Assembly: GCF_020171525.1 (NCBI RefSeq)
Contig: NZ_JAIVAI010000004.1
Coordinates: forward strand, 1 to 64,000
Reading direction: 5' to 3'
DNA length: 64,000 bases
DNA from: Halobacillus yeomjeoni
GTDB lineage: Bacteria > Bacillota > Bacilli > Bacillales > Halobacillaceae
The notes under the pieces were generated by a model, which was given only the letters and a program-made list of their open reading frames with translations, ran no database searches and was not told where the DNA came from. Shown piece by piece: positions 54,400-61,220 of the stretch (position 1 is the first letter of the stretch; every line of letters starts with the position of its first letter). The translations under genes were made by a program, and so were the position numbers.

Positions 54400-55671
54400 T
54401 TATGGAAGGAAACGACGTGGATCTACAGAATTTGAACGACTTGGATTCCAAGAACCAATGTGAATTTCAAAGTGTAAATGCTGTCCAGTAGAGTTTCCTG
54501 TGTTACCCATATTCCCTAAGAATTGCCCTCTTGAAACGGATTGTCCAGCCGATACCGCCGGAGTACTACGCATATGGGCATAAACTGTTGTGTAAGTCTG
54601 ACCATTGATACGGTGGCTCAAGAATACAACGTTTCCATAACTTGAGGAGTAGTAAGAACGGATGACAGTACCATCAGCTGCAGCACGAATCGGTACCGTA
54701 CCAGCTTTAGCCAAGTCGATTCCTGAGTGTAACCGTCCCCAACGCTGTCCATAATGAGACGATGCATATCCGGCTGAAGGCCAAGAGAACATAGCATTGC
54801 TCGATGGAGCTGGTTCAGGATCTGGTTCTGAGCTTGTATTGGAAGATTTCTTCTCTGCAGCTTTTCTAGCTGCTTCTTTTCTAGCCGCTTCTTCAGCTGC
54901 TCTTCTCTGACGTTCTTTTTCACGTTCAATTTCTTTTTGAATAGCAGCTTCCTGCGCAGCAAGTGTTTCATTAGCTTCTTCTAAATCAATAATATGATTA
55001 TGAAGCTCTTCTTCTTCTCTTTTCAGAGACTTCATCAATTTGTTCTTTTCAGACTTTTTACCGTCTAAATCTGCCTTTAATGATTCTAATTGATTCAATT
55101 TCTCTTCAAGTGAAGCCAGCTGTTCTTCAACCTGAGCCTTCTTTTCTTCAACTGCAATTTTATCCAGTCTGTGCTGCTCGAGAATCGCTTTATCCTGCTC
55201 TGCAATCGTGTTCAGACTCATAACGCGCTCCAAGAAGTTTCCGAAGCTCTCTGCGCCCATGAGTACATCTAAGTAATCAATGGCTCCACCATTTTGGTAC
55301 ATAGACTTCACACGGTCTTTCAATAATTCGTCACGTTCAGCTATACGCTTTTCTAATTCATCGATTTCTTTTTTTAATTTTTCGATGTTCTTTCTTGTTG
55401 TTTCAATTTCGCTTTCTTTCGTGTCGATTTTATCAGTCGTTTCCATAATCTGCTTATCTAAGCGTTCAATTTCACGATTCAATTGATTTTGTTCTTCTTT
55501 AACCTCAGCAATCTCTTGTTCAGTTTCATTCTGCTTTTCTTCGTTTGCAGATTGTTTGTTTCTATTTTCCTCTAATTTATCATTCAATGATTCTGCGATC
55601 GCTGGGCTCGTAAATAGTCCGGATAATCCAAGGCTGACGGTCATGGCAACTACTAAAAACTTAAACTTCAA
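54400..55671 (-). CDS. CwlO/PcsB-like peptidoglycan hydrolase, coiled coil plus M23 peptidase
   Basis: A 423-residue exported protein: signal peptide (to about residue 26, ending AIAE), a long coiled coil (about 30-260), an alanine/arginine-rich linker and a C-terminal LytM/M23 endopeptidase with HSGIDLA, AADGTV and HLHFEIH zinc ligands. In other Firmicutes such hydrolases are activated by FtsEX, and ftsX lies directly upstream. The start is TTG at 55671, eight bases after GGGGGAGG; the TTG at 55689 would lie before that site. Confidence 0.88.
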   Translation of the reverse strand: MKFKFLVVAMTVSLGLSGLFTSPAIAESLNDKLEENRNKQSANEEKQNETEQEIAEVKEEQNQLNREIERLDKQIMETTDKIDTKESEIETTRKNIEKLKKEIDELEKRIAERDELLKDRVKSMYQNGGAIDYLDVLMGAESFGNFLERVMSLNTIAEQDKAILEQHRLDKIAVEEKKAQVEEQLASLEEKLNQLESLKADLDGKKSEKNKLMKSLKREEEELHNHIIDLEEANETLAAQEAAIQKEIEREKERQRRAAEEAARKEAARKAAEKKSSNTSSEPDPEPAPSSNAMFSWPSAGYASSHYGQRWGRLHSGIDLAKAGTVPIRAAADGTVIRSYYSSSYGNVVFLSHRINGQTYTTVYAHMRSTPAVSAGQSVSRGQFLGNMGNTGNSTGQHLHFEIHIGSWNPSRSNSVDPRRFLP

Positions 55672-55707
55672 TCCTTCTTCCTCCCCCAAAACTATTTAAT
55701 TGTCTAT

Positions 55708-56601
55708 CTAGACTTTCAAGTATTTGCGTATTGATGTAAAACTTCCCCATAAACCTATGGTCATTCCCATTAACACTAGTAATCCTGAGACTTTCAGTAC
55801 GAAAGGATATACAGGCAGTAAGTCGATAAATAAGGTTGGGTACCTTGTCGTAATCGTCGTATAAAGATAATCATAACCGAAAACGACGAGACCAATTGGT
55901 ATCAATGCTCCTAAAATTCCGATGAGCACCCCTTCTACAAGGAATGGCCAGCGAATGAACCAGTTGGTGGCACCAACCATCTTCATGATTTCAATTTCTT
56001 TACGACGCGCAACAATCGTAATTCGGATCGTATTTGCTATCAGGAACATTGCAGTGAATAACAGTCCTCCTATAATCGCAAATCCGATATTCCGCGCCAT
56101 ATCCATAACATTGAAAAGTCGTTCAACCGTTTCTTTGGCATACTCTACTTTATCAACATTTTTGAAATCCTCAATAGACTTTGCAACTTCTATTGTGTCT
56201 TGTGGATCAGATGTTTTAACGACGAATACGTCATTCAATGGATTTTCATCTTTGAGAGATTCAAAAACTTCTCCATCGTCCCCAAGACTATCAATCAATC
56301 GATTCAACCCTTCCTCTTTTGATTGAAATTCGACAGTTGAGACCTTCGATATATCTTCTATTTTTTCTCTTAGATCAGCTTGTCCTTGTTCATCTGCAGT
56401 CAGCTCAATGAACACCCGAACTTCAACGTCTTCTTCAATTTGAGTTCCGATATCATTCAGGTTCATGAGCAAGGTGGCAAACACCCCGACCAATAGCAAA
56501 GTCACAGTAACGGCAGAAATTGAAGCCAGTGACATCCAACGGTTTCTTGTCAGGTTCTTAACGCCCTCTTTACCATGACGGCCAAATGTTTTAAGCTTCA
56601 T
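55708..56601 (-). CDS. cell division protein FtsX
   Basis: A 297-residue ABC-type permease subunit. One helix (about 22-45) is followed by an extracellular domain (about 45-165) and three helices, with the cytoplasmic motif RRKEIEIMKMVGATNWFIRWPFLVEG. Through this extracellular loop FtsX controls a peptidoglycan hydrolase, probably the CwlO-like protein encoded next. Its ATPase partner FtsE is usually encoded immediately upstream but is absent here. The ATG at 56601 follows AGAGGTG by nine bases. Confidence 0.92.
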   Translation of the reverse strand: MKLKTFGRHGKEGVKNLTRNRWMSLASISAVTVTLLLVGVFATLLMNLNDIGTQIEEDVEVRVFIELTADEQGQADLREKIEDISKVSTVEFQSKEEGLNRLIDSLGDDGEVFESLKDENPLNDVFVVKTSDPQDTIEVAKSIEDFKNVDKVEYAKETVERLFNVMDMARNIGFAIIGGLLFTAMFLIANTIRITIVARRKEIEIMKMVGATNWFIRWPFLVEGVLIGILGALIPIGLVVFGYDYLYTTITTRYPTLFIDLLPVYPFVLKVSGLLVLMGMTIGLWGSFTSIRKYLKV

Positions 56602-57085
56602 GGCTGCCGTCACCTCTTCTATTGCCTAGAACACCATTACTTCCGTGCACATGAATAATGACATCTTCTGATGTCATTCTAAGGTGTCTTTTATTTAACA
56701 AATTAAATCACTTCCTACTAAACACTCATTTTGTCAATCTATGTTGAAAAATATATGTAGTCTTTGTCGTCTGATGTAATTGCCTCTTAATTATAACAAA
56801 TAAATTCGCTAAATAAAGACAATTTATTATTACATTTCTATTTCATTATTTTACACCTAAGTGACAGGTGACATTTATTAATGAAGGACATCAAAGAAAG
56901 GTCGTTGTCCCATGCTCTACTCCTTGATAAATACGAGGTTGTAATCGAAATCAACAAAACGATCTCTCCACAAAGAAAGATAGATTTGAACCCATTGATA
57001 TTTTCGTGTATATACAAATGTAAATCGGCGAAAATAGTGTTTTAATCAACTCAATTCATAAACAATGATGTAAGGTTTCAAAAGA
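56602..57085. other. AT-rich region upstream of ftsX, where ftsE would be expected
   Basis: About 480 bases without a credible gene. The minus strand holds a perfect 9-bp hairpin AATGACATC / GATGTCATT (56657-56678) without a T-run, and a 28-codon frame beginning MTSEDVIIHVHG that overlaps the ftsX start but lacks a Shine-Dalgarno. No Walker A, signature or Walker B remnant of FtsE was seen. Confidence 0.55.
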
Positions 57086-57116
57086 AAAAAGACAATTCTT
57101 GTCGAATTGTCTTTTT
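57086..57116 (-). terminator. terminator of the racemase-murE operon
   Basis: Perfect 13-bp inverted repeat AAAAAGACAATTC / GAATTGTCTTTTT with a 5-base loop, 20 bases after the stop at 57137. Confidence 0.88.
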
Positions 57117-57136: not shown

Positions 57137-57412
57137 TTATTGATTTTTTAATATTTTTAGTTCCCTTTTCAAACGCAGGTTTTCTTTACGAACAGAGTCG
57201 ATATGATCAATATTCTCTTGGACGGGCATCAAATTTATCTCATACCAAGCTTTACTCTGAGCGTCGTTCACCTCTGTCGTTTTTTTCACTTTGGCGGAAG
57301 GATAAAGCTCGCGTAATGCATCAAGTTCCCCTTTAGATAATCTTAACTCCCTGTAGTAAACACCTTCACTAAAAGATTCATTCAGGAATTTCTTGAATTC
57401 TTTCTCACTCAT
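57137..57412 (-). CDS. small charged protein of unknown function
   Basis: A 91-residue protein with two parts: a first half (FLNESFSEGVYYRELRLSKG, LYPSAKV) and a C-terminal coiled-coil-like helix (DSVRKENLRLKRELKILK). It is not recognised. It follows the aspartate racemase gene by 39 bases with AAGGGG upstream of the ATG, and is followed by the terminator, so it is probably the last gene of the operon. Confidence 0.75.
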   Translation of the reverse strand: MSEKEFKKFLNESFSEGVYYRELRLSKGELDALRELYPSAKVKKTTEVNDAQSKAWYEINLMPVQENIDHIDSVRKENLRLKRELKILKNQ

Positions 57413-57451
57413 ATCTCAATCCCCTTTACATGTGATTGTGTTCCTGAGGAC

Positions 57452-58162
57452 TTAAGACTTCTGATAAACGGTTTCTTTCACTACCACTTCTGCTACGACT
57501 TCCATTGGATCAATCAACGGAGTAGGGAGGTGATAAGGGCGTAGGACCAGACCGATTTCAGTACAACCTGATATAATTAATTCAGCTCCGTTATCCAGCA
57601 ATTCCTGGGCGGCTTCTTTCAATAATTGCAAAGGTTCTCCATCGGTATTACCACTTTTGATCCCATTTGTCCCATAAATCGCCCGCATTACCTTATCGTT
57701 TTGAGTTTCCGGGCTTGGATATAAGACGTCTAAATGATCCAGGTACTTTTCGAAAAGACCTGTTTCCAAAGTTCCACTAGTAGCCAGAACTCCGATTTTT
57801 TTAGCGCTTGGATAATTATCACTTATATATTTTTTTAATTCCAGAAAGGCATTTAGCAGTGGAAAAGAAACTTCCCTTTGAACTTGCTCAATAAAGTAAT
57901 GAGCAGTCATGCATGGAATACACGCTACTTCAACTTCTAACTTTTCCAGATTTTTTGCCGCATCCACCATTTGAGGGACGGGATTTGGCCCTCTCCCTGC
58001 AATTGCTTCTGTCCGGTCTGGGATTTTTGCATTGCTGTCAATGATTACACGGAAGTGTTCCTGGTCCTTTGTTGCATGAGTAGCTCGAATGATTTTCATA
58101 TAACATTCAGCTGTTGCCTCCGGTCCCATTCCACCTAATATACCTATAACCTTGTCATTCAT
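57452..58162 (-). CDS. aspartate/glutamate racemase family protein
   Basis: A 236-residue racemase of the Asp/Glu/hydantoin family with the opening IGILGGMGPEAT. The expected two catalytic cysteines are present in ACIPCMTAH and SGCTEIGL. It would interconvert L- and D-aspartate. Next to an ATP-grasp ligase and a MurE paralogue, it probably supplies D-aspartate for the cell wall. It starts 42 bases after the MurE-like gene with AAGGAGG upstream of the ATG. Confidence 0.9.
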   Translation of the reverse strand: MNDKVIGILGGMGPEATAECYMKIIRATHATKDQEHFRVIIDSNAKIPDRTEAIAGRGPNPVPQMVDAAKNLEKLEVEVACIPCMTAHYFIEQVQREVSFPLLNAFLELKKYISDNYPSAKKIGVLATSGTLETGLFEKYLDHLDVLYPSPETQNDKVMRAIYGTNGIKSGNTDGEPLQLLKEAAQELLDNGAELIISGCTEIGLVLRPYHLPTPLIDPMEVVAEVVVKETVYQKS

Positions 58163-58204
58163 ATAATGCCTCCTTACGAACGACTGTATTGTGGTCTGTG
58201 ATGT

Positions 58205-59752
58205 TTACAAGATTCCTGCTACTCTGTTCTTCAGAGGCTTGAATAATTTTTCTTCATCCATCTCAGGACGCTTTTCACTTAGCTGTTCTAATGCAATTTT
58301 CGCTCCTGGGTCCATGCCCTGACAACCAGCTAATAAGACTACATCGTCTTTTTCAGCTTCTGAAATGGCATGGTTGATTGCATCATCGATTTTTCTATAC
58401 AAGTGAACTTTTATTCCTGCCTTATCCATCACATCTTGGAATACACGCAATTCTTCTTCAGTCACTTTATCTTTCTCTGAGACATGGGGTTCACTCAAGG
58501 TTGCAATGACTTCCCTCAACCCTAAAGTTTCAGCCCACTCAGCAATTGCTTCTGCATTCTCGCGGTTGACCGTGACTCCACGACTTCCTCTTATAGCATA
58601 AACAAGTTTCAAATTGGAGTATTCCATTTGTTGCAGCGTACTTAAAGTTACATTGATGTTTCCATAATTAGCGAAGTGATCATCAAGTATTTTGAAGTCA
58701 TCTTCAAACACCATTTCGAAACGGCGCTCTACACCACCAAATGCTTTCAACCCTTTCTGAATTGTCGAAACCGGGACTTCATTCAATAATCCTGCCGCAA
58801 TAGCAGCCATTGAATTGTATACAGAATGGTACCCTGGTGTTGACAGCTCAACATCGAACTCCATCGGTTCATATGAGGTGTCACCAACCTTAAACGGCTT
58901 CCTTACTTCCACCGTAAATTTGGCGCGTCCAGAAGAAAGGTCAAGATCCTTACATACTAAGTCGCCGTCCCTCGTTTCTACACTGTAAGTTAATACATTA
59001 GCTTCGGTTTCTTCTACAAGGGAAGCAGAATATGGATCATCTAAGTTCAATATCGCCCATTTACCAGGACCAGCCTCCCTGATGAGGCTTGCTTTACAAT
59101 TGAAATACTCTTCAAAAGAACCGTGTAAATCGATATGTTCCCGACTAATATTATTTAACGCGACGATATCAAAATCTACACTGCCGACCCGGCTTAAATC
59201 TAATGCTGATGATGACACTTCCATTGTAACGTGGGAAACATTCTGCTCTCTCATTTGTGCAAAATAGTGGTGCAGATCCAATGATTCGGGAGTTGTCAAT
59301 TTTGTAGGTTCTGAATAGTCTCCGAACTTCACAACGACTGTGCCGATAAGACCTGTGTTCAACCCATGTTCCTCAAGAATCGCATTGGTCATAAACGAAG
59401 TGGAAGTTTTACCATTTGTTGCTGTTATTCCGATCGTCTTTAACGCTTGAGACGGATGACCATAATAGGCATCACTCATTGCCGCTAATGCCTTACGACT
59501 ATCTTCCACACGAAACTGAGGGATATCCTGCCAGTCTTCTTGATAATCCTCTACAACAAGGGCAGAAGCACCTTTAGATACAGCTTCTAAAATATACGCA
59601 TGCCCGTCGGTTTTAAAACCTTTTATACATACAAAAACATTTCCTTTTTCTACTGACTTGGAATTATAAGCAAGACCTGTAACTTCTAGATCTTTTTCAT
59701 TCCAAGACTCCAACACATTAACGGATTTTAGCAAGTCGTAAAGTTTAGCCAT
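58205..59752 (-). CDS. divergent MurE-type Mur ligase
   Basis: A 515-residue Mur ligase. The N-terminal UDP-binding domain (CIKGFKTDGHAYI) is MurE-like, and the ATP P-loop GITATNGKTSTS is at 108-119. VTMEVSSSALDLSR, NNISREHIDLHGS, the carbamoylated-lysine region (FNCKAS) and GVERRFE are intact. The C-terminal domain departs from normal MurE: the amino-acid-selecting DNPR motif is replaced by SEPH (about residue 417) and GKGHE by GCQGMDPG (about 478). It should add a residue other than meso-diaminopimelate; L-ornithine is proposed from context. A non-wall amide ligase is the alternative. Confidence 0.85.
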   Translation of the reverse strand: MAKLYDLLKSVNVLESWNEKDLEVTGLAYNSKSVEKGNVFVCIKGFKTDGHAYILEAVSKGASALVVEDYQEDWQDIPQFRVEDSRKALAAMSDAYYGHPSQALKTIGITATNGKTSTSFMTNAILEEHGLNTGLIGTVVVKFGDYSEPTKLTTPESLDLHHYFAQMREQNVSHVTMEVSSSALDLSRVGSVDFDIVALNNISREHIDLHGSFEEYFNCKASLIREAGPGKWAILNLDDPYSASLVEETEANVLTYSVETRDGDLVCKDLDLSSGRAKFTVEVRKPFKVGDTSYEPMEFDVELSTPGYHSVYNSMAAIAAGLLNEVPVSTIQKGLKAFGGVERRFEMVFEDDFKILDDHFANYGNINVTLSTLQQMEYSNLKLVYAIRGSRGVTVNRENAEAIAEWAETLGLREVIATLSEPHVSEKDKVTEEELRVFQDVMDKAGIKVHLYRKIDDAINHAISEAEKDDVVLLAGCQGMDPGAKIALEQLSEKRPEMDEEKLFKPLKNRVAGIL

Positions 59753-59893
59753 TCTATCTACCTTCCTACTCTATTGATAACTTGTCCAACATTGGACCAG
59801 ACGTATATTCATACTTAATACTTTTCGTATCACTTTAATTTTTTGTAACGGTCTACGCTGAGGTATTCCCCGCTTCCACCTATGATTAAACCG

Positions 59894-61081
59894 TCAACTC
59901 CGCTTTATAACCTTACCTTTAACTAAACCGAACATTTTTTTACCGAATGCCATAGCAGGTTTAGGGTCTTTAGGATCCCATATCGCTGGAGCTTTTGGAC
60001 GGAAATAGGAGGTGATTACTTGTTTGATGGATAACTGACCTGTTTTGATGTATTCCCTGACAGCTAACAGATCCTCATAGGCATACCAGAACACCATGTT
60101 CTTATCTTCTTCGACAGCCTTCGGATCAAGTGGTTCTCCGATAAGCTCACGGTAAGTGATCCATGGAATATTGATTCCGGTCTTGTATAATAAATGGTTC
60201 AAGTTCGTAATCCTGACATTGATTTCAATCAAGTAGTAACGCCCTGTTTGAGCATCCTTCTTAAATTCAATTTCTGCAAAACCTTTGTATCCAATTCCTT
60301 CAAGAAATTTCGCTCCAAGCTCATACAACTCCGGCACATGCTTTTGTTGAGTATATACGGAAGCCCCGTAATTGATAGGGAACTGACGGAGCTTTTGGCA
60401 GGTAACCCAATGGGTAACCTTCGAATCCTGATTCAAATACGCATCGAACGTATACATGTGGTCATCAAATCCAGGAATGATTCTCTGAACGATGACTTCG
60501 ATATTGGACTCTTTCGCCAAATTAACTTTTTCAACCAATTCTTCTTTATTGTAAACCTTGAATAATTTTCTTCTAAATTTAGAAACAAAGGCAGGGGAAT
60601 CAACCGGTTTTACTAAACACGGATAGTCCATCATCTCTTCAACTTTTTCAACAAAGTTTTCCTGGTAAACATTCACGGTTTCAGGTACAGCCACTCCATG
60701 TTGAGAAGCTAACGTGTGAAGTGTACCCTTATCCATAATCTTTGTATAAAGTCCCTGCTCTTTTTGTGGAATGAGAAAATGCTCTCGTAATTCAGGTAGA
60801 TAGTCATCCACAAATTCGACATATGGGTCAGCTGTCGGGATCAGCACCGGAGTATGATCCTGTCTTTTTGAATAATCAATCAAAAATGATAAAAGTCCTT
60901 CAGGATCCTCTTTATAATGTGGTCCTATCAATGCTTCCGAGCAGTACTTCGACTCTAATCCATAAGCACCATCCCAGGAATAATCCACGGCTGCCACGTG
61001 TACATCGTGTACACCTAAACAGCGGATCGTGCTTAAACCGATATAATAATTCGCACCTAGAACAACCGCTTTGTTTTTCAT
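59894..61081 (-). CDS. ATP-grasp carboxylate-amine ligase, probable D-aspartate ligase
   Basis: A 395-residue ATP-grasp enzyme with an N-terminal VLGANYYIGLSTIRCLG start. ATP-binding segments include PCLVKPVDSP, VIVQRIIPG and a metal-binding FAEIEF and IEINVR. This layout fits the D-aspartate ligase (Asl) family, which couples beta-aspartate to the side-chain amine of the stem peptide. The racemase two genes downstream supports D-Asp as substrate. It lies 141 bases before the MurE-like gene. AAGGGG precedes the ATG. Confidence 0.82.
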   Translation of the reverse strand: MKNKAVVLGANYYIGLSTIRCLGVHDVHVAAVDYSWDGAYGLESKYCSEALIGPHYKEDPEGLLSFLIDYSKRQDHTPVLIPTADPYVEFVDDYLPELREHFLIPQKEQGLYTKIMDKGTLHTLASQHGVAVPETVNVYQENFVEKVEEMMDYPCLVKPVDSPAFVSKFRRKLFKVYNKEELVEKVNLAKESNIEVIVQRIIPGFDDHMYTFDAYLNQDSKVTHWVTCQKLRQFPINYGASVYTQQKHVPELYELGAKFLEGIGYKGFAEIEFKKDAQTGRYYLIEINVRITNLNHLLYKTGINIPWITYRELIGEPLDPKAVEEDKNMVFWYAYEDLLAVREYIKTGQLSIKQVITSYFRPKAPAIWDPKDPKPAMAFGKKMFGLVKGKVIKRS

Positions 61082-61220
61082 TCATATACCCCTTTTTCAA
61101 CGAGTCACTTTCAATGTCTTATACTCATTTTTCCGAAACTACTTAAACATACCTATTTTATCATAATCTTAACTGTAAAAAAATGATGACGCCCCGTCTT
61201 CCATTTGATGATACCAATAA

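Follow-up and report, generated by a model that had tools for sequence, protein, structure and literature searches.

The window analysed here, a stretch of 64,000 nucleotides from the genome of Halobacillus yeomjeoni (assembly of 3.27 Mb in 15 contigs), carries on its minus strand an operon that encodes an ATP-grasp ligase, a paralogue of the UDP-N-acetylmuramoyl (UDP-MurNAc) tripeptide ligase MurE, an Asp/Glu racemase, and a small conserved protein. The operon is real and conserved, and it is very probably a cell-wall kit. We consider it moderately probable that this kit serves the vegetative wall, providing a stem peptide other than that with meso-diaminopimelate (mDAP) together with a D-aspartate (D-Asp) bridge, which in Halobacillus would be L-ornithine (L-Orn) and D-Asp. 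We infer that the MurE paralogue would add L-ornithine, a diamino acid lacking a second carboxylate, to UDP-MurNAc-L-Ala-D-Glu, and that the racemase would supply D-Asp. Ahead of cross-linking, the ATP-grasp enzyme would activate the beta-carboxyl of D-Asp and couple it to the amine on the ornithine side chain. The canonical MurE of the dcw cluster would be retained, its pocket still that for mDAP, and would probably serve in making the spore cortex.

Within the operon, the ATP-grasp gene (59894..61081, 395 amino acids), proposed to encode the cross-bridge D-Asp ligase, is transcribed first. It is followed by the gene of the MurE paralogue (58205..59752, 515 amino acids; here called type A), the proposed L-ornithine-adding UDP-MurNAc-tripeptide ligase, and by that of the racemase (57452..58162, 236 amino acids), the proposed source of D-Asp. 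Open reading frames (ORFs) and family searches agree with the original prediction of three enzymes encoded in one direction, coordinates included. The genes are separated by 141 bases between the ATP-grasp ligase and the MurE paralogue, 42 between the latter and the racemase, and 39 between the racemase and the small ORF. The ATP-grasp and MurE paralogue genes lie side by side in 22/22 Halobacillus genomes, together with one racemase of this type, and the operon is therefore not a product of chance. Among the other genomes of the family (n = 22), the full set occurs only in Thalassobacillus pellis; five more contain only racemases, 25-38% alike.

Beyond the family, 25/397 genomes in a sample of the order encode an ATP-grasp protein at least 58% identical, the matches in a further 35 genomes (25-32%) belonging to another subfamily. 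From a scan of a named collection, the best 80 of 182 relatives were taken as related loci, the closest being 16 Halobacillus loci (L075-L090), in agreement with the genus that had been called from the DNA. The ATP-grasp ORF was callable in 79 of the 80 (all except L098), and many counts given below use these 79 loci. A MurE homologue is present in all 79 loci scored and is the next gene with few exceptions (e.g., L084, L127, and L139). The racemase of the cluster occurs in at least 62 of the 80, having been missed through the choice of ORF in L082 and some loci ending at contig ends. A shared operon with a racemase gene is what would be expected of a D-Asp ligase.

Family searches place the paralogue within MurE, since it scores 302.2 bits against TIGR01085 (cut-off 257.3); all three Mur-ligase domains, PF01225, PF08245, and PF02875, are present, and scores for the narrower mDAP and Lys MurE models lie under their cut-offs. 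Its AlphaFold2 model (predicted local distance difference test, pLDDT, of 91.9) matches MurE over the full length. The best match by E-value in the PDB is Staphylococcus aureus MurE (4c12), and mDAP-type MurE structures reach a nearly equal template modelling score (TM-score), so that the fold is silent on the substrate of the paralogue. At the sites for UDP, ATP, and D-Glu and at the carbamylated lysine, the protein has the residues of a MurE. All 40 type A sequences (rows of alignment A4, from which the type A residue counts derive) keep S31, D49-G50-H51, N113-G114-K115-T116, T153-T154-P155, S180-S181, R188, K220, R344, and R391; T110 and T112 are found in 39/40, and position G111 is mostly Ala. 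Several of these conserved residues would correspond to the Arg that binds D-Glu, the carbamylated Lys, and the Arg of the alpha-carboxyl.

The two motifs that characterize mDAP-adding MurE are missing. SEPH replaces DNPR and GCQGMDPG replaces GKGHE in the window paralogue, both substitutions having been correctly described in the original prediction. Throughout type A, the D of DNPR is S in 40/40 rows and the E of GKGHE is D in 40/40, while the R of DNPR has given way to H (38 rows) or N (2 rows); the claim that the paralogue is not of mDAP type is thus upheld. The pair expected for an L-Lys MurE, Asp-406 and Glu-460, is also not found, S420 and D481 standing at positions whose equivalence derives from the motifs and the sequence alignment. 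In PMC3829189, these Asp and Glu residues of S. aureus MurE are described as binding the omega-amine, and the N and R of DNPR as holding the second carboxylate in mDAP MurE. As read from its residues, the type A pocket would be neither of the mDAP nor of the Lys type. Loss of DNPR indicates which substrate is unlikely rather than that the substrate is ornithine, and the pocket evidence fits ornithine without proving it. In summary, the paralogue shares with MurE of both types the full-length fold, TIGR01085 membership, the P-loop, TTP, SS, and the conserved Arg and Lys residues, and differs from them in lacking DNPR or DNPA, in having GCQGMD for GKGHE, and in falling into a clade of its own, separate from that of dcw MurE and from a further lineage, type B, described below.

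Two loci show particular states of the paralogue. In one Halobacillus genome (G014; L049, 7893-9445) it is split into two frames that overlap, although the rest of the operon, three genes, looks intact; this reflects either recent damage or a sequencing error. In T. pellis (L045, 6921-10780), one operon holds two type A paralogues, one 73% identical to that of Halobacillus and the other, at about 60%, from another branch.

Regarding the racemase, it scores 180.5 bits against TIGR00035 (cut-off 93.1) and also matches PF01177. Its residues R50, C84, K169, and C200 align with R48, C82, K164, and C194 of the Pyrococcus horikoshii aspartate racemase (1jfl), presumably the two catalytic cysteines together with the Asp-binding Arg and Lys, all of which are kept. 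The ATP-grasp protein gives weak matches to ATP-grasp families of Pfam and NCBIfam and is its own sole match at E <= 0.001 in its genome. Its AlphaFold2 model (pLDDT 89.0) has the ATP-grasp fold expected of a D-Asp ligase, the Foldseek matches being biotin carboxylases, PurK, and, as carboxylate-amine ligases that it resembles, PylC and an L-amino acid ligase.

A D-Asp ligase and an aspartate racemase had been put forward as a known pair for D-Asp bridges, and this is borne out by Lactococcus lactis, where AslA, the D-Asp ligase, belongs to the ATP-grasp enzymes, aslA and racD share one operon, and AsnH amidates the D-Asp of the bridge (PMC4155827). The present operon has in common with the AslA/Aslfm, RacD, and AsnH systems of L. 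lactis and Enterococcus faecium the combination of an ATP-grasp and an Asp/Glu racemase gene, and differs from them in including a second, dedicated MurE. An asparagine synthase gene accompanies the set in 21/79 related loci, none of them among the 16 of Halobacillus, and a C39-like peptidase gene in 18/79; in Ornithinibacillus both lie 5' of the ATP-grasp gene, non-adjacent to it. Among 40 listed of 93 plasmid records, no annotated D-Asp ligase was found, these being mostly Priestia genes annotated as carbamoyl-phosphate synthase, with one close relative from Acetoanaerobium. A PF15632 search of control genomes, L. lactis included, returned no control loci.

Cyanophycin synthase unites an ATP-grasp and a Mur-ligase domain in one enzyme, and both operon proteins match it weakly. 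A split cyanophycin-like or poly-amino-acid system might accordingly be envisaged, in which a peptide based on D-Asp or cysteate, outside peptidoglycan, would be acted on by first one and then the other of the two enzymes, a scheme that would also accommodate an Asp/cysteate racemase and the asparagine synthase and C39-like peptidase of some operons. However, the N-terminal nucleotide-binding Mur domain is preserved in the paralogue, as are the residues for UDP-MurNAc and the dipeptide, and it is MurE that its model matches from end to end. Furthermore, no cyanophycinase-like gene was noticed among the recurrent neighbours inspected, although no search was aimed at cyanophycinase. Such a system appears improbable to us.

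The check for a second, canonical murE that accompanied the original prediction finds one in the dcw cluster of the same genome, beside MurF, MraY, and MurD and with DNPR and GKGHE. Both motifs are equally complete in the dcw MurE of all 22 Halobacillus genomes and in a comparison set of 11 further genomes, 9 of which lack the operon. The two MurE enzymes of Halobacillus evolve at different rates. Measured against MurF+MurD+MraY over 19 Halobacillus genomes, dcw MurE has a tree length of 1.48, and the operon enzymes reach 0.55 (paralogue), 0.53 (ATP-grasp ligase), and 0.67 (racemase). The paralogue thus evolves at a rate about 2.7-fold below that of the canonical enzyme in the same genomes. 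This set is without G014 (split paralogue), G015 (484 of 515 residues matched), and G021 (whose dcw stretch was not part of the data). Moreover, dcw MurE evolves 2.1, 1.8, and 1.6 times faster in Halobacillus (21/22 genomes) than in three groups of the family without the operon (g4, 10/11 genomes; g2, 4 genomes, without T. pellis; g6, 4 genomes), with all 40 site bootstraps of the comparison above 1. With MurD+MraY as yardstick, the ratio is 1.62 in Halobacillus versus 0.72, 0.93, and 0.87 in the three groups.

This fast evolution would also suit ornithine addition by the Halobacillus dcw MurE itself, its DNPR motif notwithstanding, as driven by the amino acid pool, with the operon making something else. 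Lysine use by S. aureus MurE has indeed been attributed to the lysine pool over tight specificity (PMC3829189). Nonetheless, the motifs of the Halobacillus dcw MurE are as complete as in the genomes lacking the operon, and no role would then be left for the operon that could account for its being fixed in the genus. We judge a pool-driven dcw enzyme equally improbable.

A third MurE-like gene, with DHPG and SGCINN in place of DNPR and GKGHE (L007, 6955-8448; in the window's genome G000, C5:36972-38360), was seen in 7 Halobacillus genomes, that of the window included. It was considered as the ornithine enzyme and is less likely in this role, since it also occurs in two genomes without the operon (G024 and G028). 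Separately, two genomes of family f19 where the operon was not found, G424 (C3:3467353-3468747) and G184 (C1:2603367-2604812), hold a second canonical-like MurE with 55% and 49% identity, respectively, to the dcw MurE of G158.

Vegetative use of the operon is suggested by its promoter region. An extended -10 element, TATGATAAAAT (61155..61165, minus strand), lies 5' of the ATP-grasp gene. The corresponding motif, TRTGNTARAAT, which was picked after aligning upstream regions, is found at this place in 18/18 cases (the window, the 16 Halobacillus loci, and T. pellis), in 7/1037 background windows of 330 bases from the same loci on one strand, and in 8/59 loci of other genera. A scan for promoter consensus sequences in the region did not rise above chance and missed the conserved element, which the alignment revealed. 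An extended -10 element presumably suits sigma-A and not the sporulation factors, and its conservation therefore suggests that the operon is used in vegetative cells.

Several observations weigh against the ornithine and D-Asp reading of the vegetative wall. The modelled paralogue shows no preference for the Lys-type structures, and, judging from the aligned residues, both acidic positions expected to bind the omega-amine are altered (D to S and E to D), a diamino acid being for this reason an uncertain substrate. For the ATP-grasp model, Foldseek places biotin carboxylases over amino-acid ligases. The racemase exceeds the cut-off of the 'cysteate racemase' model NF052483 (210.2 bits, cut-off 190), a family that includes CuyB and ranks first for it in NCBIfam; a 32% relative from another such operon passes this model too (206.4), and the model may consequently be broad. 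As for the rates, in the family of another genus, g81, the dcw MurE ratio by the MurD+MraY yardstick is 1.42 with the operon (8 genomes) and 1.49 and 1.18 without it (4 and 3 genomes), and the Halobacillus dcw MurE exceeds 8 operon-less genomes of that family by a factor of only 1.28 (1.02-1.49). These high ratios in genera without the operon render the Halobacillus acceleration suggestive rather than decisive. A general rule by which the operon speeds up dcw MurE had seemed attractive when g81 (operon in 8/9 genomes) appeared accelerated; the similar values of its operon-less kin led us to drop it for g81 and weakened it for Halobacillus.

The distribution of the operon is a further point on the same side. 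The best 80 loci include Halobacillus, Thalassobacillus, Ornithinibacillus, Oceanobacillus, Virgibacillus, Sediminibacillus, and Aquibacillus, and also Alkalihalobacillus, Cytobacillus, Fredinandcohnia, Neobacillus, Paenibacillus, Cohnella, Caloramator, Tissierellia, and others. Many of the genera outside Halobacillus that carry the operon are believed to have mDAP walls. As a marker of L-Orn-D-Asp walls the gene set fails, given its relatives in Paenibacillus, Cohnella, Cytobacillus, Fredinandcohnia, Alkalihalobacillus, Caloramator, and Tissierellia. Its spread across genera, whose walls are considered here at genus level, rules out a strict A4beta marker. Co-occurrence with A4beta walls was found in part, both Ornithinibacillus loci carrying the set and genera with other walls carrying it as well.

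This spread would be explained if the operon worked in wall metabolism apart from the main vegetative stem peptide, the paralogue attaching some other residue to a precursor that is minor or confined to one stage, such as that of a conditional wall or a wall-linked peptide, and other genes making the Orn-D-Asp wall. The type B partner found beside the same ATP-grasp ligase in some loci, the two paralogues of T. pellis, and the dcw MurE rates of g81, not clearly unlike those of operon-less genera of its family, all agree with a minor precursor. On the contrary, presence in every Halobacillus genome, slow evolution, and a conserved promoter element of vegetative type do not, and no other genus-specific MurE of non-mDAP kind was seen, the third MurE-like gene being shared with G024 and G028. 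We therefore regard a minor precursor as rather unlikely, and retain the vegetative wall as the preferred role.

The relation between the ATP-grasp ligase and its MurE partner has changed repeatedly. In 14/79 loci the ATP-grasp gene adjoins a different MurE, type B, which has DNPK and GKGHE. In a MurE tree (quick method, midpoint root as drawn), a branch separates each of type A, type B, dcw MurE, and the third gene from the rest. In the tree of the ATP-grasp ligase, the type of MurE partner requires 6 changes, 4 of them forced by well-supported branches. Ornithinibacillus (type A, 2 loci) groups there with Oceanobacillus (type B, 2 loci; support 94/83) and also with Virgibacillus (type B, 2 loci; 86/97). 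According to PMC4062624, the wall type is A4beta in the genus Ornithinibacillus and A1gamma in Oceanobacillus, and this contrast, a single comparison at genus level, supports the association of type A with A4beta walls. Overall, the Orn-D-Asp interpretation of the original prediction holds as regards the genus, the canonical murE, the non-mDAP paralogue, the pair of ligase and racemase, and Ornithinibacillus, and does not hold as regards the wall marker.

The copies of Halobacillus and T. pellis fall together with those of Clostridia, suggesting that they were acquired by transfer. A wider scheme is possible, and we advance it tentatively. In it, the operon would be a horizontally transferred 'second wall' cassette of Bacillota, in which one ATP-grasp bridge ligase works with either MurE lineage, A without DNPR or B with DNPK, and exchange of the MurE decides which residue stands third in a further stem peptide, made in addition to the ordinary mDAP wall. 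This second wall would have become the main vegetative one in Halobacillus and, separately, in Ornithinibacillus, the ancestral mDAP MurE being demoted, perhaps to spores, and drifting.

The last gene of the operon (57137..57412, minus strand) encodes the small conserved protein of 91 amino acids, which has no match among Pfam or NCBIfam families. An ORF of its family is present in 42/80 related loci, a count based on the first profile of the protein, a second profile being contaminated and recovering racemases. It lies immediately 5' of the ATP-grasp gene in L092, L105, and L112. In Bacillus sp. V3B, an in-frame fusion (L110, 15536-16504) places the small protein at the C-terminus of the racemase, an arrangement suggesting joint action of the two proteins. 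A terminator-like hairpin at 57086..57116 (minus strand), 3' of the small ORF, marks the operon end; it is a palindrome followed by a T-rich stretch on both strands, reported by the pattern scan on the plus strand only. Five terminator-like sites were found in the region versus 3.4 expected from shuffles, so that the match to the consensus is weak by itself. The common terminator originally proposed for the three enzymes accordingly stands as far as the hairpin goes, the fourth ORF in front of it having been overlooked.

Behind the operon, genes for FtsX and a PcsB-like M23 hydrolase (54400-56613 of the window) are found in 15/16 Halobacillus loci and in T. pellis, the 16th Halobacillus locus (L081) being a 4-kb contig. 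This ftsX has no ftsE in front of it. The genome has its best FtsE match on a different contig (G000 C3:185866), and no FtsX was found within 1.5 kb of that match.

In the open-licence literature, no paper was found whose title or abstract start assigns genes to this wall type, and the available parts of PMC12167742, PMC3587942, PMC1283985, PMC3995056, and PMC6639625 are silent on these genes. A gene deletion in H. halophilus is reported in PMC3995056. L-Orn-D-Asp is described as one of the rarer Bacillus wall types (PMC9781867), and Halobacillus campisalis, of which the ASL-17 genome is published, as having mDAP, 'unlike other Halobacillus' (PMC10868198).

The wall type is a long-standing taxonomic character of Halobacillus, whose genus description is reported to give an Orn-D-Asp wall, and of Ornithinibacillus, and the operon offers concrete gene candidates for it, among them a MurE whose pocket would be unlike those of the mDAP and Lys types. 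The repeated exchange of MurE beside one ligase, together with the presence of the kit in genera with supposed mDAP walls, indicates that some bacteria may carry genes for two walls. The occurrence of the operon in those other genera poses a more interesting question than the Halobacillus wall itself.

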